Shown here in pieces: positions 40,001 to 62,872 of a stretch of DNA of 64,000 bases. Position 1 is the stretch's first letter, and the number at the start of each line of letters is the position of its first letter. Source of the stretch: Alloprevotella rava (GTDB taxonomy: Bacteria > Bacteroidota > Bacteroidia > Bacteroidales > Bacteroidaceae); NCBI RefSeq assembly GCF_014195585.1, contig NZ_JACICA010000001.1, positions 434,001 through 498,000 on the forward strand. Reading direction: 5' to 3'. A program made the position numbers and the translations under genes. Below the pieces are notes generated by a model. That model saw only the letters and a list, made by a program, of their open reading frames with translations. It was not told where the DNA came from and did no database searches.

Positions 40001-40918
40001 TCACTTTATATCTACTATATCTATAATCGAAGAGTTCTTATAGATGATTTCTATTTGAGAATTTGCCGTTTTGTTACAGACATTCTTCAGTTGTTGTAGT
40101 GAAACCTGTAGGCTTTTTCCTTCTACTTTTATAAAAGCTATACTGGGCAAAACATTTACTATTACTCCTCGTTTTTTTATGATTTTACCTACATTTTCTA
40201 TTTCTTGTTTTATCGTTCCTACCAATTTGATTAAAACAATTCTAATACTATTAAATGTATTGTATTTGAAAAACCTATATAAGGCATTGTTTTCATCGTG
40301 TTCTTCCACGATTACCATACAGCGATGAGCTCCTTCGTTTCGTACTTGCCTTAATTGTGAATATGTAGCTTTTATATTTTTGTCATCAGGAAAAAGAGTG
40401 TTACATATCGCATTGAGTTTATGAGTAATTTCAATATCACTTACGCTTTTATATTCTTTGTTAGCATTACACTTGAAAGAATATATTCCATCAACATTTG
40501 TCGCATTCTCTATAAAACTCAACAAATTGTTAATATCTGGAAACATTACATAAAAATAGAAATTTACGACATTTTCTATTTGATAGAACGCATTTGCGCA
40601 AAAGGAATAAAAACGTTCTAGTTCTTTTTCCTTCAGGTTCAAAGCGGCATTTTCCATGCGAAGATTATCAATGAGAAGTTGGTCTCTTAATCTTTGATTT
40701 CCTTTTGCCAATATAAAATCATACGAAATGCTGTTATTGGCTCTTATTTCTAGCGTCTCACGAATAGCATGAACATCATCGCAAATTGACATTTGGGATG
40801 AAATAACATTTGCGGAGGAGGTTCTTTCTAACCTCTTCCGCAATTCTGCGTCAAACTCTGGATTTTGTTTGCTCAGTTGTACTATTTTATCTATTGTTGA
40901 TTTCAGTTTCTCGTCCAT
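40001..40918 (-). CDS. Retron-associated HEPN-motif protein with cold-shock-like C-terminus (putative effector)
   Basis: 305 residues. It is mostly helical, with a coiled-coil-like middle (about residues 75-100, MENAALNLKEKELERFYSF) and LRQVRNEGAHRCM at about 189-201. RNEGAH fits the R-X4-H catalytic motif of HEPN ribonucleases. The last about 60 residues (KKRGVIVNVLPSIAFIKVEGKS and on) have the spacing of a small OB/cold-shock-type beta domain. ATG 40918 lies 5 nt after the RT stop, so the two are one operon; a GTG at 40924 overlaps the RT stop. By position it should be the toxic effector held in check by the retron RT-msDNA complex. That role is inferred; the HEPN call rests on one motif. 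Confidence 0.7.
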   Translation of the reverse strand: MDEKLKSTIDKIVQLSKQNPEFDAELRKRLERTSSANVISSQMSICDDVHAIRETLEIRANNSISYDFILAKGNQRLRDQLLIDNLRMENAALNLKEKELERFYSFCANAFYQIENVVNFYFYVMFPDINNLLSFIENATNVDGIYSFKCNANKEYKSVSDIEITHKLNAICNTLFPDDKNIKATYSQLRQVRNEGAHRCMVIVEEHDENNALYRFFKYNTFNSIRIVLIKLVGTIKQEIENVGKIIKKRGVIVNVLPSIAFIKVEGKSLQVSLQQLKNVCNKTANSQIEIIYKNSSIIDIVDIK

Positions 40919-40923
40919 AAGCA

Positions 40924-42423
40924 CTAATTTAATAGTTTGTCCAAATCATCATTCAATTCATCTATGTCAACAGGTTGAGCTGGTGATACAGTTACCTTGT
41001 CTGAACGATGAACGAGCCAGAAGAGTTTTCCTTTTGCATCTCGACAATTGGATATTGACAACAACTCCTTTCGGTCTTCGTCTTCTTTTTTCAATGACTT
41101 GTTCACTGATGCCTTTTGCATTCTCCCACCTAATTTAAAGGATACATAGCGATGAGGAATGAAATTCTCAGAGATACTCTTTTGTGTATCTTCTGTTGCC
41201 TCTTGGGACGTATGTTCGGTGTAGAACTCTTTGGGCTTAGTTGTCACTATAGTGATTGTCGTGTTATTCTTCTTCTCAAACTCCAATACTGGCAATGTCT
41301 CAACGTATGTGATTCCTTGTAGAGTCGTCTTTGTATCGTCATGAAGTGAGTTGCACAATGCGTCAAATTGGCTTCTCAGTCTCTTGTAAACGCTGTCGTC
41401 TTCACCCTTCACCATTTTAAGATACATAAGTTTACCGTCCAACACGTTCACCATGTCAGGATTACCCTTCTTCACATGTCCTTTGGCTTCTTTGTATTTG
41501 GGGAAGAATTTATTGAATGCGGTGTCATAGCCGTATTTATGCCATATGTAGAGAATGTTGCGTATGTCGCGAACATATTTTTGGGACACATTGAGTTTGT
41601 CACTAACGATGATGCCTGTAACTTCCTGTCGTGAGCCAAACTTCTGTAGCCTTGTCTTGGCTTCATTCATTGTGAAGCCTTGGCTTTCGATTATTCGTTT
41701 TAGTTCTTTTCTGAACTCCCCTGAAGTTTGATAAACATTGTGCATTGAGCTAAATGTGATGTCATCAGCATATCTGGAATACACAACGCTAAAGCGTTTT
41801 GCCAATCCTGCCAGCCTGCGATCCAAATTGTCACAAATCATATTTGTTATGATAGGTGATGTTGGTGCGCCTTGAGGTAAGACAAACTTGATGTTGCCAT
41901 CTTCGGTTTTCTCTTTCATAGAGCACAGACCTGCAAGGATATTGGCTATCGATTGTTTGAAAAGCAAAGGCTTCAATTGTAACCTTTTCCATACTCTCGC
42001 TTGATGGATACTTGGAAAGAAATCTTTCAGGTCGGTGTTGAAAACATAGTTGTGTCCTTTATGCTTGTTTGCATTAGTCACAACGGAACGACCTTCGGTA
42101 AATCCCATGGCATAATCAGAAGGGGTGTATACAGCCTTGAATACTTCATTTACATATCGCAATAGCAACATAAAACTTTGATTTCTCGGTGCCGTTATCA
42201 GCCTAAAGCCTCCTGATTTCTTTTTAATCTTGAATTGCTTATATCGATGAAACGAATTGTTGGGGTTGCAATAATAATTCAGGTGTTTCATCGTGAATGG
42301 ATAGAATTTATCAGACATACCATATTCAGTCATCTCATCCTGCTTTATCTGGTTGAGAAGACGAAGGAGATCCTCTTTTGTCTCCAATTGTTGTGTGGCT
42401 TTTGATATACTATTCTTATCCAT
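40924..42423 (-). CDS. Retron-type reverse transcriptase
   Basis: 499 residues. RT motifs in order: IKKKSGGFRLITAPR, TNANKH (about residues 114-119, the retron-specific NAxxH), FNTDLKDFFPSIH (first catalytic Asp), LPQGAPTSPIITNMICDNLD (about 180-199), SRYADDITFS (about 215-224, active-site YADD) and QEVTGIIVSDKL with the retron VTG triplet (about 267-269). There is no maturase or endonuclease domain, so it is not a group II intron. Typical retron RTs are about 300-350 residues; this one carries about 165 extra residues at the C-terminus (from about 330) with no domain that I recognise. It copies part of the adjacent ncRNA into msDNA. Confidence 0.92.
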   Translation of the reverse strand: MDKNSISKATQQLETKEDLLRLLNQIKQDEMTEYGMSDKFYPFTMKHLNYYCNPNNSFHRYKQFKIKKKSGGFRLITAPRNQSFMLLLRYVNEVFKAVYTPSDYAMGFTEGRSVVTNANKHKGHNYVFNTDLKDFFPSIHQARVWKRLQLKPLLFKQSIANILAGLCSMKEKTEDGNIKFVLPQGAPTSPIITNMICDNLDRRLAGLAKRFSVVYSRYADDITFSSMHNVYQTSGEFRKELKRIIESQGFTMNEAKTRLQKFGSRQEVTGIIVSDKLNVSQKYVRDIRNILYIWHKYGYDTAFNKFFPKYKEAKGHVKKGNPDMVNVLDGKLMYLKMVKGEDDSVYKRLRSQFDALCNSLHDDTKTTLQGITYVETLPVLEFEKKNNTTITIVTTKPKEFYTEHTSQEATEDTQKSISENFIPHRYVSFKLGGRMQKASVNKSLKKEDEDRKELLSISNCRDAKGKLFWLVHRSDKVTVSPAQPVDIDELNDDLDKLLN

Positions 42424-42434
42424 ACTTGTTTATA

Positions 42435-42626
42435 TTTAAGAAGGTGACATCGGAAACGACAGACATTCATTTCTTTATATAAGAAAATAAGACTATTAAA
42501 TATAAAAACAACATAACACAATAGAAAGCACATACAACGTATGTGCAAGTCTACGTTAACGTGATAACATTGTTATCTCTATATCCCGAAAGATAATGAG
42601 ACATCATGCGAATATACCTTCTTAAA
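42435..42626 (-). ncRNA. Candidate retron msr-msd RNA
   Basis: A 192-nt non-coding segment directly upstream of the RT is bounded by a perfect 11-bp inverted repeat: TTTAAGAAGGT at the 5' end (42626-42616, a1) and ACCTTCTTAAA at the 3' end (42445-42435, a2), 11 nt before the RT ATG. This is the arrangement of the a1/a2 stem in retrons. Inside are hairpins expected of msr/msd: GATAAC/GTTATC (42563-42577), an 8-bp stem GCACATAC-AAC-GTATGTGC (42528-42546), the palindrome ACGTTAACGT (42553-42562) and a 3' AT-rich hairpin (about 42468-42487). The branching G and the msd limits cannot be fixed by eye. Transcription probably starts near 42705. Confidence 0.82.
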
Positions 42627-42627
42627 A

Positions 42628-42642
42628 GAAAGCATGGCTTTC
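42628..42642 (-). other. Small hairpin just 5' of the retron a1 repeat
   Basis: GAAAGC-ATG-GCTTTC, a perfect 6-bp stem, adjoins the a1 repeat. On the minus strand it is followed by TTTTAAG, so it could act as a weak leader terminator or protect the RNA's 5' end. Confidence 0.4.
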
Positions 42643-42711
42643 ACCCGCAAGACGAATTCAAATTTATGTCTGCCGCCCCGAATGTCAAAGACCTCTTTTT
42701 ATTTTCTGATG

Positions 42712-42746
42712 CAAAGTTTCTACATTGTCACGAATTCTTTGTTCGT
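42712..42746 (-). promoter_or_regulatory. Retron promoter with candidate WYL operator (site 1)
   Basis: The -7 box reads AAACTTTG on the minus strand (42719-42712, one mismatch to TAnnTTTG). Ten nt further upstream is the inverted repeat ACGAA-TTCTTTG-TTCGT (42730-42746). The same repeat, same 7-nt spacer and same 10-nt distance to the -7 box occur before the WG-repeat and WYL genes. It sits where the -33 box should be. Confidence 0.75.
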
Positions 42747-42770
42747 TGTTATGCGTAAATTGCAATATTA

Positions 42771-43619
42771 CTAATCAATATTCCAATAAGCGTCAGGATC
42801 GCCATCAAAAGCATCGTCTATCACATCGTCACTATATCCTTCCACATCTTGGGCATACGAACCAGCGTATTCACCAAAGTTTGTACCATAATCATCGACA
42901 TTGATATCATAGTTATCCGAGTGATTGTCCTTTTCTTGGGTTTTATCCATATCCAATAGTTCAGAAAGAATGACATCATGGGCAACATTACCTTTTACGA
43001 CCTTGGTTGTAACACGTTTCTTGTCATAAAAATTCCATATATTATCATACTCTAAAGAGAGGACTTCTTTGCCATTTTCATTTATCAATCCCCACTTGTT
43101 ACCATTCTCTTTTTGCCCATTTGTCACGTTTCCTATTTTTACCCTTGCAAGACCCTTGTCGAATCCGTCAATCCAATTATATTTTCCAAAAGGAACAACT
43201 TCTGTTCCATCTATATTTAAAACTGCATATTCAAAATGATTATTTTGGACAGTATATAGTTTCTTGTCTCCAATAGCTGGTAGCAAAAGATAAAATGATG
43301 GTTCAAAGATTGTCTCGCCTTTATAATTAATAAGTCCATACATCGGACGCTTATATGTGGAAACTTTTCCTCCACTGCGAGGGAACCCATAGAGGTCGTC
43401 TACAGTAACCCTTATATTATCGTTTTCTTCATAACACTCACCATAGTACATGCTGAATTGCGGCTTTACTACGATGTATCCTTCTTTATTTACAAACCCT
43501 ATTTTGTCACCACTTGTGAAAGGAATAAGAAGCCTATCATCATCTTGCATATTATATGAAGATGCTGGTACTAAAACTTTAGTATATTGATTAACTGACA
43601 GCAATTCTTTCTTTTCCAT
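42771..43619 (-). CDS. WG-repeat protein of the retron island
   Basis: 282 residues, cytoplasmic (no signal peptide). It contains at least three WG (KWG) repeats: DKIGFVNKEGYIVVKPQFSM, YGLINYKGETIFEPSFYLLL and KWGLINENGKEVLSLEYDNIW. Each has the (W/Y/I)G-hinge followed by an aromatic-Asp turn, and together they form a beta-structured scaffold. The last about 60 residues are acidic (DDYGTNFGEYAGSYAQDVEG and on). No catalytic motif is visible. It is transcribed from its own promoter with WYL-type operator (site 2), so it is likely co-regulated with the retron. Role unknown; possibly a sensor or adaptor. Confidence 0.8.
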   Translation of the reverse strand: MEKKELLSVNQYTKVLVPASSYNMQDDDRLLIPFTSGDKIGFVNKEGYIVVKPQFSMYYGECYEENDNIRVTVDDLYGFPRSGGKVSTYKRPMYGLINYKGETIFEPSFYLLLPAIGDKKLYTVQNNHFEYAVLNIDGTEVVPFGKYNWIDGFDKGLARVKIGNVTNGQKENGNKWGLINENGKEVLSLEYDNIWNFYDKKRVTTKVVKGNVAHDVILSELLDMDKTQEKDNHSDNYDINVDDYGTNFGEYAGSYAQDVEGYSDDVIDDAFDGDPDAYWNID

Positions 43620-43645
43620 ATTATATCATTTTATGTTTCGTGATG

Positions 43646-43680
43646 CAAAGTTAAATATGTAGTACGAATTCTAAGTTCGC
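43646..43680 (-). promoter_or_regulatory. WG-gene promoter with candidate WYL operator (site 2)
   Basis: -7 box TAACTTTG on the minus strand (43653-43646). Ten nt upstream is ACGAA-TTCTAAG-TTCGC (43664-43680), which overlaps the stop codon of the WYL gene. The predicted 5' leader is only about 20 nt. Confidence 0.75.
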
Positions 43681-44753
43681 ATCTCCAGAGATTTATAATT
43701 ATCAACCATTTCCGTTATTCTGTTTTCTATCTTCTTCCGTATTATGACTGGTGTAAGGACTATAAGTTCCTTGCCAAAGCTTGTAAGTTCACGAATAAGT
43801 TCATAATTCTCCTTGCAATCTATGCTGAAGAATCTTCCATTAGAACGTGTCGGATATATTTTCCTAAGCTTCTCTTCTTCACTTCCGCTTATGTTTTTTT
43901 GAGAATCGTGAATAGGTTTTGTTGCAACATAATCTTTTGAGATATCACTAACCCAGAAAACTATATTGTACACAGGACTTTCCTCGTTTATCGTTACACC
44001 TAGTGTATCGTCAAAGATTTCGCTTATTTCACCATCATAATCTATAAATTTATGCGAAGGTAACGGAACCACATTGTCGATTCTATCAAGACTGAAACAA
44101 AGTAGTTTCCTATCTGATTCAGCTGCTGCAAACAGAAACCAACGTCGATTATATTCTTTCAAAAGATACGGATGTATATTGACTGTTAACCCTGTGTGCG
44201 GTGAAGAAAACTTATGATAATGCAATTCCACAACCTGTCGATGTGAAATAGTGGTAAAAAGTTCACCAAGCAAATTGGAATTTTCCAAAGGATTCTTTGT
44301 TAAAGATATTATCTTTCTTTCATTTCTTCTTACACCTAATCCGAGTCTTAACCCTTCCAAAGCATCCAAATTGGGAAGTCCTTCGAACTGTCCAAGCAAT
44401 GAAAGTGCTTCTTTCAGCAGATACTCCTCATCATCACTCAAATCTTTCTTGAAAATAGAGAATGAGGGGCTTGTATATCTGAGACAGCGTTTGTTGTATG
44501 ACTTCTGCTTCTCGCTATTATAACCAGGAGTACTATAACGTTCAATTTCTACCAAGAAAGGTCCCTCATATTCTAAATAGAAAAGATCCTTCTCGATAGT
44601 ACGACGTCCAACGCCATTTGTATCAGGATACAATTCGGCAAGACGCTTGTTGACTTCTTCTGTTAAATCATCAAGCGAATAGTTATGATACCGACAACTA
44701 AGCAGATCGTCAAGTATCTTATATCGAGTCATCGCATTTTTATTAGCTGGCAT
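43671..44753 (-). CDS. WYL-domain transcriptional regulator
   Basis: 360 residues. An N-terminal winged helix-turn-helix (about residues 1-75, with VGRRTIEKDLFYLEYEG as the recognition part), a central WYL domain (about 160-235: VVELHYHKFSSPHTG, NIHPYLLKEYNRRWFLFAAA, LCFSLDRIDNVV) and a C-terminal WCX-like region (about 265-350). WYL regulators such as CapW and BrxR repress anti-phage defence operons and release them on ligand (nucleic acid) binding. Three copies of an inverted repeat in this island, one before this gene itself, are good candidates for its operator. Probably autoregulated. Confidence 0.88.
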   Translation of the reverse strand: MPANKNAMTRYKILDDLLSCRYHNYSLDDLTEEVNKRLAELYPDTNGVGRRTIEKDLFYLEYEGPFLVEIERYSTPGYNSEKQKSYNKRCLRYTSPSFSIFKKDLSDDEEYLLKEALSLLGQFEGLPNLDALEGLRLGLGVRRNERKIISLTKNPLENSNLLGELFTTISHRQVVELHYHKFSSPHTGLTVNIHPYLLKEYNRRWFLFAAAESDRKLLCFSLDRIDNVVPLPSHKFIDYDGEISEIFDDTLGVTINEESPVYNIVFWVSDISKDYVATKPIHDSQKNISGSEEEKLRKIYPTRSNGRFFSIDCKENYELIRELTSFGKELIVLTPVIIRKKIENRITEMVDNYKSLEMRT

Positions 44754-44774
44754 TACTTCTCCATTTTAATGGTA

Positions 44775-44810
44775 CAAAAGATACATAGATATAACGAACT
44801 CTATATTCGT
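44775..44810 (-). promoter_or_regulatory. WYL-gene promoter with candidate WYL operator (site 3)
   Basis: -7-like box TATCTTTTG on the minus strand (44783-44775, one extra base against the consensus). Ten nt upstream is ACGAA-CTCTATA-TTCGT (44794-44810), a perfect 5-bp-arm repeat with a 7-nt spacer. It starts 1 nt after the stop of the next upstream gene. Confidence 0.75.
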
Positions 44811-62176: not shown

Positions 62177-62872
62177 TTAATAGTCCTTGAAGAGGCGGAG
62201 CAGATAAAGGAAGATGTTGATAAAGTCAAGGTAGAGCTCCAAGCTTCCTATAAGTGCTAACTTCAAGGTGTTCTCATTTTCCTCATCGCCCATTTCTTGT
62301 AGCATGATTTTGATGCGCTGTGAGTCCCAAGCTGTGAGCCCGCAGAAGATGAGCACACCAGCGATTGATACAAACCAGTCAAAAGTGTTGTTTGTTACAA
62401 AAAGGTTTACAATACCTGCAATGATGAGTCCGATGAGTGCCATATAGAACATACGGCCCGTGATACTCAGGTCTTTCTTGGTTATATAGCCTAGAAGTGC
62501 CATACCACCAAATGTTCCAGCTGTGATAAAGAAAGTAGTGGCGATGGTGTTAAACTCATATACTAAGAAGATGAAACTCATCGTTACGCCATTGAGTATG
62601 GAGTAGAGACCAAATGTAATACCTGCTGTGGCAAACGACATTTTCCAAATGCGAGTGGAGAGAAAAATAACGAGTAAGAGTTCAATGCCGATAGCACCAA
62701 AGAACCAGCCTTGTGAAATATGATAAATTGCGCCAGACTGTGCAACCCAAGCGGCGGTCAGTCCTGTCATCGCTAAGGCTAGTGTCATCCAAAGATACAC
62801 TTTGCGTATAAGAGTGCCGAAGGCAACTTTCGTTTCAGTTACCTCTCCATAATTGTTATACCTATTCTCCAT
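62177..62872 (-). CDS. Bax inhibitor-1/YccA family membrane protein
   Basis: 231 residues, seven transmembrane helices. FVSIAGVLIFCGLTAWDSQRIK in helix 6 is the BI-1 family signature, and SLELYLDFINIFLYLLRLF ends the protein with the typical C-terminal segment. These proteins are pH-sensitive calcium leak channels in the studied examples; the function here is unknown. Confidence 0.92.
   Translation of the reverse strand: MENRYNNYGEVTETKVAFGTLIRKVYLWMTLALAMTGLTAAWVAQSGAIYHISQGWFFGAIGIELLLVIFLSTRIWKMSFATAGITFGLYSILNGVTMSFIFLVYEFNTIATTFFITAGTFGGMALLGYITKKDLSITGRMFYMALIGLIIAGIVNLFVTNNTFDWFVSIAGVLIFCGLTAWDSQRIKIMLQEMGDEENENTLKLALIGSLELYLDFINIFLYLLRLFKDY

Follow-up and report, generated by a model that had tools for sequence, protein, structure and literature searches.

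A shared palindromic site and WYL regulator before many defence genes of related gut bacteria suggest a plug-in, probably activating switch for defence

The described systems closest to the one reported here are built on regulators of the WYL family, for which control of defence islands, including islands with more than one binding box, is already known. CapW, the regulator of CBASS (cyclic oligonucleotide-based antiphage signalling systems), has palindromes that overlap the -10 element and repress (PMC9122588). BrxR of BREX (bacteriophage exclusion) islands has 11-5-11 repeats with a box downstream of -10 in Escherichia fergusonii (PMC9122601); in Acinetobacter it lies over a canonical -35 element and is a proposed repressor (PMC9122589). 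Activation is described for DriD of Caulobacter crescentus, whose sites overlap the -35 element at one distance from -10, both the -35 and the -10 elements being poor (PMC12340889), and for the mycobacterial regulators PafBC and SiwR, which work together with the housekeeping polymerase from a position between -35 and -10 (PMC11804915, PMC10693628); PafBC is a heterodimer that uses a -26 motif, and the targets of SiwR are two DinB-like genes. Single-stranded DNA activates DriD and PafBC and, as stated in PMC13373217, reportedly releases CapW and BrxR. Here we analyzed a stretch of 64,000 nucleotides (nt) of Alloprevotella rava, referred to as the window (assembly GCF_014195585.1, contig NZ_JACICA010000001.1, positions 434,001 to 498,000), in which three promoters of a retron island, one of them that of a WYL gene, share a palindromic operator.

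In the order of transcription, the island carries on the minus strand genes for a WYL regulator, a WG-repeat protein, a retron RNA, a reverse transcriptase and a probable HEPN RNase. Promoters of Bacteroides follow a -33/-7 consensus. Direct reading confirmed sites of the form ACGAA-N7-TTCGY at the three positions given by an earlier sequence-only reading, and bore out its observation that, in gene orientation, exactly 10 nt separate each site from the -7 box of its promoter. Each operator occupies the place of the -33 box, as that reading had also stated. The elements concerned are as follows, with scores from a weight matrix introduced below.

44794..44810, minus strand: operator 3, upstream of the WYL gene; ACGAACTCTATATTCGT as read, ACGAATATAGAGTTCGT in gene orientation; matrix score 21.8
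44776..44783, minus strand: -7 box of the WYL promoter, TATCTTTT followed by G, 10 nt past operator 3; one mismatch to TAnnTTTG
43671..44753, minus strand: WYL regulator of 360 amino acids (aa); WYL domain at E 8.3e-10
43664..43680, minus strand: operator 2, upstream of the WG-repeat gene; ACGAATTCTAAGTTCGC as read, GCGAACTTAGAATTCGT in gene orientation; matrix score 38.3
43646..43653, minus strand: -7 box of the WG-repeat gene, TAACTTTG; no mismatch to TAnnTTTG
42730..42746, minus strand: operator 1, upstream of the retron RNA; ACGAATTCTTTGTTCGT as read, ACGAACAAAGAATTCGT in gene orientation; matrix score 32.4
42712..42719, minus strand: -7 box of the retron promoter, AAACTTTG; one mismatch to TAnnTTTG

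Two of the three boxes hence differ from TAnnTTTG by a single base. Operator 2 (43664-43680) and the WYL stop codon overlap, which the sequence-only reading had not mentioned; the final codons and the promoter that follows therefore share DNA.

The window held six strand matches of ACGAA-N7-TTCGY as compared to 0.50 expected, a number reached by none of 100 shuffles; these matches represent the three operators and one unrelated match at 62818-62833. Across the whole genome (2,557,292 bases in 28 contigs) the bare pattern gave 24 strand matches, as compared to 20 for the reversed control, at 17 places, three of them in the island and 14 scattered elsewhere. As these counts are so close, the pattern outside the island is at background level, and none of the 14 other places, judged by eye, carries the YTCTWWR spacer; the genome density predicts approx. 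0.01 match per 2.1 kb. When the -7 box was included and up to two mismatches were allowed, 17 genome matches were found (10 for the reversed control); the island's three sites had zero, one and one mismatches, one other place had one and 13 other places had two. Within this 2.56-Mb genome, the site-plus-box pattern is therefore essentially confined to the island rather than present at many unrelated promoters, and the regulon, by pattern, consists of three promoters. Moreover, a weight matrix derived exclusively from other loci recovered exactly the three operators in the window (38.3, 32.4 and 21.8), the maximum in 0.7 Mb of random sequence being 10.7.

We then scanned the WYL protein against the contigs of one genome for each of 84,980 species, which yielded 65 loci. 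Gene maps and counts cover 56 of these (L037-L092; 672,052 bases; WYL identity 39-91%), as L093-L101 were too distant or partial; the maps come from a simple ATG-to-stop caller, in which small genes and starts may be wrong. The nearest named relative at the locus is Prevotella pectinovora P4-76 (L037), with a WYL protein identity of 91%; in this locus, a second WYL protein (374 aa by the caller) lies on the opposite strand, upstream of the WYL gene beside the cassette. RCGAA-N7-TTCGY occurs 74 times in the 56 loci, as compared to 0-10 times for each of the other spacers between 0 and 15 and four times for the reversed pattern with N7. Exact TAnnTTTG boxes around the 74 sites, counted in both directions, stood 64 times at 10 nt, never at 11-29 nt and five times at 30-52 nt; the single one at 9 nt was in L045, on the strand opposite to the site. 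At least five of the six box letters were present at +10 in 72 of the 74 sites (the remaining two being in L083 and L085), and all 72 read in the direction of the WYL gene. With sites bearing GCA instead of GAA arms included, all 86 exact boxes located 0-30 nt downstream on the WYL strand stand at 10 nt.

In total, and with the window included, we found 120 operators in 53 of 57 loci. The next gene encodes the WYL protein in 37 cases, a reverse transcriptase in 17, a WG-repeat protein in 12, an AAA_15 ATPase in nine and a GHKL-type ATPase in five; 14 operators precede genes found in one locus only, and the remaining families are represented by fewer. Where the next gene is the WYL gene, the site starts 54-65 nt ahead of the start codon in 30 of 37 cases. 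In L052, the WYL reading frame contains stop codons over the matched range, and operators and cargo are in place.

Chance or base composition as the origin of the sites was ruled out by the shuffles, the spacer controls and the genome scans, and a promoter copied along with a repeated element was refuted by the conservation. That the three sites are a chance resemblance, or such a copy, without regulatory meaning has a negligible probability: the window itself has three sites only, which would suit this explanation, whereas 53 of 57 loci have the operator, four further genomes have it next to WYL genes with 37-51% identity, spacers and flanks are varied, and the spacer and reversed controls are low.

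The assignment of a binder was addressed by searching 399 genomes of the family independently for the composite pattern (site plus box) and for the WYL protein, which avoids a choice of loci based on WYL. The composite pattern was found in 39 genomes (65 sites, as compared to one for the reversed control) and a WYL gene at E <= 1e-60 in 28. Composite sites were present in 25 of the 28 genomes with the WYL gene and in 14 of the 371 others (P = 1.4e-26; Fisher's exact test), leaving 14 genomes with the pattern only and three with the gene only; in one of the latter (G167), the WYL gene (L117) is accompanied by a hybrid site, ACGAA-N7-TGCGT. In the genomes with the WYL gene, 44 of 48 sites lie within 10 kb of it and 43 of these 44 are co-directional with it. 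The genome of the window has a single WYL match, namely the island gene itself. This co-occurrence across 399 genomes makes the WYL protein very probably the binder of the three sites and, together with the proximity of site and gene and the regular distance to the start codon, supports the proposal that one operator at three promoters defines a regulon of the WYL gene.

Operator variants bear on the same question. One group of WYL loci carries GCGCA-N7-TGCGC sites instead of GAA arms, which fits recognition by the WYL protein. In an alignment of 50 of the 57 WYL proteins (L052, with its in-frame stops, L056, L074, L076, L079, L089 and L091 are absent), of which six (L051, L084, L087, L088, L090 and L092) were left out of the covariation counts, all five proteins with SLRTIQ or CLSTIQ have GCGCA-type sites. 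L059, L066 and L081 have such sites despite RRTIE or RRSIE. Covariation between WYL protein and operator was dropped as proof of specificity because of these three exceptions and because mutual information was not specific to the recognition helix.

Several observations count against the WYL protein as binder. In ten of the 14 genomes with the pattern only, no WYL gene lies within 10 kb; L064, L084, L088 and L092 have no operator above the threshold, an imperfect one being present in L064; and operator type follows WYL protein groups, but the WYL columns most strongly associated with it do not cluster in the recognition helix, and shared ancestry therefore explains the arm type equally well. 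A different dimeric regulator or a sigma-like factor might read the site, with the WYL gene as merely one of its targets. We consider this very unlikely. In its favour, 14 of the 39 genomes with composite sites have no close WYL gene, and the operator core is oriented (see below), which implies a reader beyond a symmetric dimer. On the other hand, in four of those 14 genomes the site lies next to a more distantly related WYL gene (37-51% identity), the island gene is the sole WYL match in the window's genome, where composite sites outside the island are close in number to the control (14 as compared to 10), and one group of WYL loci has GCA in place of GAA arms.

Among distant WYL paralogues (approx. 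28-34% identity; L012-L018), five of seven loci have no such site. Two paralogues with approx. 29% identity are associated with ACGCA-type palindromes located 10 nt from a -7 box, i.e., in L014 (near 2603, minus strand; a relaxed palindrome ahead of its WYL gene) and in L016 (near 2631, plus strand; a strict palindrome pointing away from its gene). The 10-nt geometry may thus exist in other WYL families, too.

Whether the WYL protein activates or represses was judged mainly from promoter architecture. When site-box distances of 2-24 nt were allowed in 32 WYL genomes, 54 of 63 matches stood at exactly 10 nt (13 matches for the reversed control over all distances) and the other nine at 5, 8, 9, 11, 12, 13, 13, 15 and 20 nt. 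In a dereplicated set of 55 sites, with one site per WYL cluster (75% identity) and next-gene family, the 10 nt between operator and box showed a pairwise identity of 0.343, as compared to 0.275 expected by composition; the length of this stretch is kept, its letters mostly are not. None of the 72 operator promoters, as compared to 36 of 286 other TAnnTTTG promoters in the same loci, carried TTTG at -25 to -23 from the box, which is the -33 place (P = 2.9e-4). Furthermore, the arms are symmetric and the core ATAGA (positions 7-11), which lies near the -33 place, is asymmetric; its orientation follows that of transcription in 54 of the 55 dereplicated sites (82/84 without dereplication and 43/43 when dereplicated by spacer). 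An oriented core near the -33 place indicates that something directional reads it, most simply RNA polymerase.

Among the described systems, DriD is like the one studied here in being a WYL protein with a site over -35 at a fixed distance and a poor -35 element. It differs in that it governs DNA-damage genes and does not govern its own gene from that site (PMC12340889), whereas here defence genes and the regulator's own gene are concerned, in Bacteroidota and with a near-consensus -7 box (TAnnTTTG). CapW shares a WYL regulator beside an abortive-infection system and a palindrome in the regulator's own promoter; here, the site lies upstream at a fixed spacing and recurs ahead of several transcription units. 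BrxR shares a WYL protein heading defence islands, inverted repeats and, in E. fergusonii, more than one box per island. The palindrome in the regulator's own promoter beside defence genes, typical of CapW and BrxR, is present here, and many of the non-WYL genes next to operators are defence cargo. An operator over or downstream of -10, as in CapW and E. fergusonii BrxR, is not what we found, as 10 nt separate the end of the operator from the -7 box downstream of it. The invariant distance despite varying DNA, the lack of a -33 box, the oriented core and the likeness to DriD lead us to favour, with moderate confidence, a WYL protein that would act as a self-activating activator rather than as a repressor.

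The opposite polarity would have a CapW/BrxR-type dimer block sigma region 4 and shut off the WYL gene, the WG-repeat gene and the retron until a ligand such as single-stranded DNA releases it, the oriented core then being a weak -33 element beneath the operator; we judge this less likely than activation, although a good deal more likely than a different reader of the site. It agrees with the defence-island WYL regulators described in PMC9122588, PMC9122601 and PMC13373217, which are repressors; abortive effectors like a HEPN RNase benefit from staying off; and near-consensus -7 boxes fit promoters that need no help. A repressor requires no fixed distance, yet 10 nt is found for the 86 exact boxes within 30 nt downstream and for 54 of the 63 matches genome-wide while the letters between vary; no recognizable -33 box is left; and the sites of CapW and E. 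fergusonii BrxR lie at or below -10, unlike those studied here.

A number of points weaken the case for activation. The Acinetobacter BrxR, a proposed repressor, also covers -35 (PMC9122589). The spacing has a likely genuine exception, the clearest one being a site at G348:C22:20276-20309 with a 9-nt distance, just upstream of a WYL gene (37% identity), and the 10-nt stretch is not wholly free, its first base being A in 42 of 55 sites. The missing TTTG at -33 is partly built in by the operator letters that occupy this place, and just 36 of the 286 other promoters carry it. The -7 boxes are near consensus (exact TAnnTTTG in 64 of 74 sites), whereas DriD promoters have poor -10 elements. A profile search of solved structures matched PafBC chains (E 8e-7), 7qfz (8.4e-4), CapW (0.0076) and BrxR 7t8k (0.074); as DriD is absent from these matches and unrelated receptors also score 0.07, the E-values say little on polarity. 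A PDB search with the single WYL sequence gave no match. Overall, the CapW/BrxR-style repression put forward by the sequence-only reading is not favoured by the geometry, which is DriD-like, Acinetobacter BrxR being the counter-example.

For activation, we propose that a WYL homodimer would bind both ACGAA/TTCGT arms at three promoters, which belong to the WYL gene itself, the WG-repeat gene and the operon of retron RNA, reverse transcriptase and HEPN gene. The dimer would straddle the place of sigma region 4 at -33 and anchor RNA polymerase to promoters without a -33 box, in analogy to DriD in Caulobacter. As the WYL gene has an operator promoter, too, activation would feed back positively on itself, and WYL protein, WG-repeat protein and retron would rise together. 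By analogy with DriD, PafBC and CapW, the trigger would probably be a nucleic acid that signals phage attack or DNA damage, e.g., single-stranded DNA; since the retron makes single-stranded DNA, its product (multicopy single-stranded DNA, msDNA) is a conceivable ligand of the WYL protein. Across Bacteroidales, the switch would serve as a docking promoter, with different defence modules being swapped in behind it. The complete proposal, that is, a Bacteroidales-wide plug-in switch with a self-activating WYL protein that replaces the -33 sigma contact, an oriented core that the polymerase reads between the half-sites, exchangeable cassettes and a signal that may be single-stranded DNA including msDNA, is offered tentatively, and we put its chances slightly short of even.

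The WYL domain of the regulator (PF13280) reached 39.0 bits at E 8.3e-10, as compared to a cut-off of 21.8; a C-terminal WCX match (PF25583; E 1.5e-4) reached 22.5 bits, just below the cut-off of 23.9. No helix-turn-helix family matched at E 0.1, and we infer a helix-turn-helix for the N-terminus. R51, E54 and D56 are nearly invariant (at least 90%) among the 50 aligned proteins. The genes and RNA downstream of the regulator are the following.

42771..43619, minus strand: WG-repeat protein, 282 aa; WG_beta_rep at E 1.4e-17
42424..42711, minus strand: retron non-coding RNA region; aligned across 12 loci, that of the window among them, and some pairs covary
40924..42423, minus strand: retron reverse transcriptase, 499 aa; RVT_1 at E 7.8e-22, with YADD, NANKH and VTG motifs
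40001..40924, minus strand: probable HEPN RNase effector, 305 or 307 aa depending on the start codon; RN-x(2-3)-HR motif

YxDD, NAxxH and VTG are hallmarks of retron reverse transcriptases. The enzyme encoded here has YADD at 218, NANKH at 117 and VTG at 268, and it matches PADLOC retron reverse transcriptase models with up to 336.6 bits; NCBIfam retron models match it below their own cut-offs. The retron RNA region, which starts a few tens of nt past the operator, showed 27 predicted pairs in the 12-locus alignment, 14 of them changed on both sides in at least one sequence, with a small covariation term (-2.27 kcal/mol); Rfam gave no match for this region. A single operator-like half-site, ACGAATTC (42652-42659), lies inside the retron RNA beside a conserved RNA motif and is probably part of the RNA.

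A HEPN-like neighbour is present in 18 of the 25 loci with a reverse transcriptase of this cluster, and RN-x(2-3)-HR is invariant in the 18 cluster members, the window's included; the HEPN_LA2681 match to the effector is weak (E 0.0047, below the cut-off). The type IX retron Kva2 likewise has a HEPN RNase effector, with a winged-helix partner and without the canonical HEPN motif (PMC13405049). The island studied here differs from it in having the invariant RN-x(2-3)-HR, and no winged-helix partner was seen between the retron promoter and the HEPN gene. The main text of PMC9122601 mentions "retron" only in the introduction and the reference list. Among the papers listed from the literature searched, which lacked most subscription papers, we found no WYL-controlled retron, no such site in Bacteroidales and no fixed-distance WYL site in a defence island.

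A regulon specific to retrons was rejected, as reverse transcriptase genes of this cluster occur in 25 of the 57 loci only, 17 of them with an operator 150-420 nt upstream, and other loci have other cargo. The view of the island as a WYL-controlled retron regulon was thus supported as to WYL and too narrow as to the retron, which is one of several cargoes. Operators also precede TOTE helicase, AAA_15, GHKL ATPase and HAD/DprA-like modules, and a gene for a YhcG-like nuclease often follows the WYL gene directly, without a site of its own.

In one group of loci (WYL proteins 82-99% identical; 12 pairs compared), the promoter is nearly identical over approx. 45 nt, spacer included. The members share similar WYL proteins and the YhcG-like nuclease, and the cargo diverges approx. 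45 nt from the operator start; it consists of reverse transcriptase and HEPN gene in L070, L072, L076, L077 and L091, of AAA_15 in L067, L069, L079 and L082, and of the GHKL ATPase in L078 and L080. As the spacer varies elsewhere, the nearly identical promoter with differing cargo appears to reflect a recent exchange of cargo while the promoter stayed in place.

Some cargo genes lack a recognizable family. A protein of approx. 830-975 aa is encoded co-directionally upstream of the WYL gene in L046 (3171-6014), with relatives in L041, L047 and L063, a fragment in L040 and one member elsewhere in L081; an operator lies ahead of it in several loci, and it has no Pfam match beyond a marginal WD40. 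The second genes of the AAA_15 module (L069:9888-10898 and L067:10762-11769), which are candidate unrecognized effectors, matched nothing in Pfam or PADLOC at E 0.001, and the same is true for the partner in the GHKL ATPase module (L078:10831-12147).

As far as the literature searched shows, this would be the first retron under a WYL regulator. The conservation anticipated for homologous islands is borne out by the 74 N7 palindromes of the 56 loci, 72 of them with a box. Little is known about how defence islands get switched on, and the rule RCGAA-N7-TTCGY-N10-TAnnTTTG finds the regulon in raw Bacteroidales genomes, which makes this question testable; the rule also points to unrecognized defence modules, several cargo genes having no Pfam match. 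If activation holds true, defence would be induced through polymerase recruitment that reinforces itself by positive feedback instead of through derepression, and msDNA as the signal would couple retron activity to its own transcription. Overall, the same site and regulator before many defence genes in related gut bacteria suggest a plug-in switch, which probably turns defence on.

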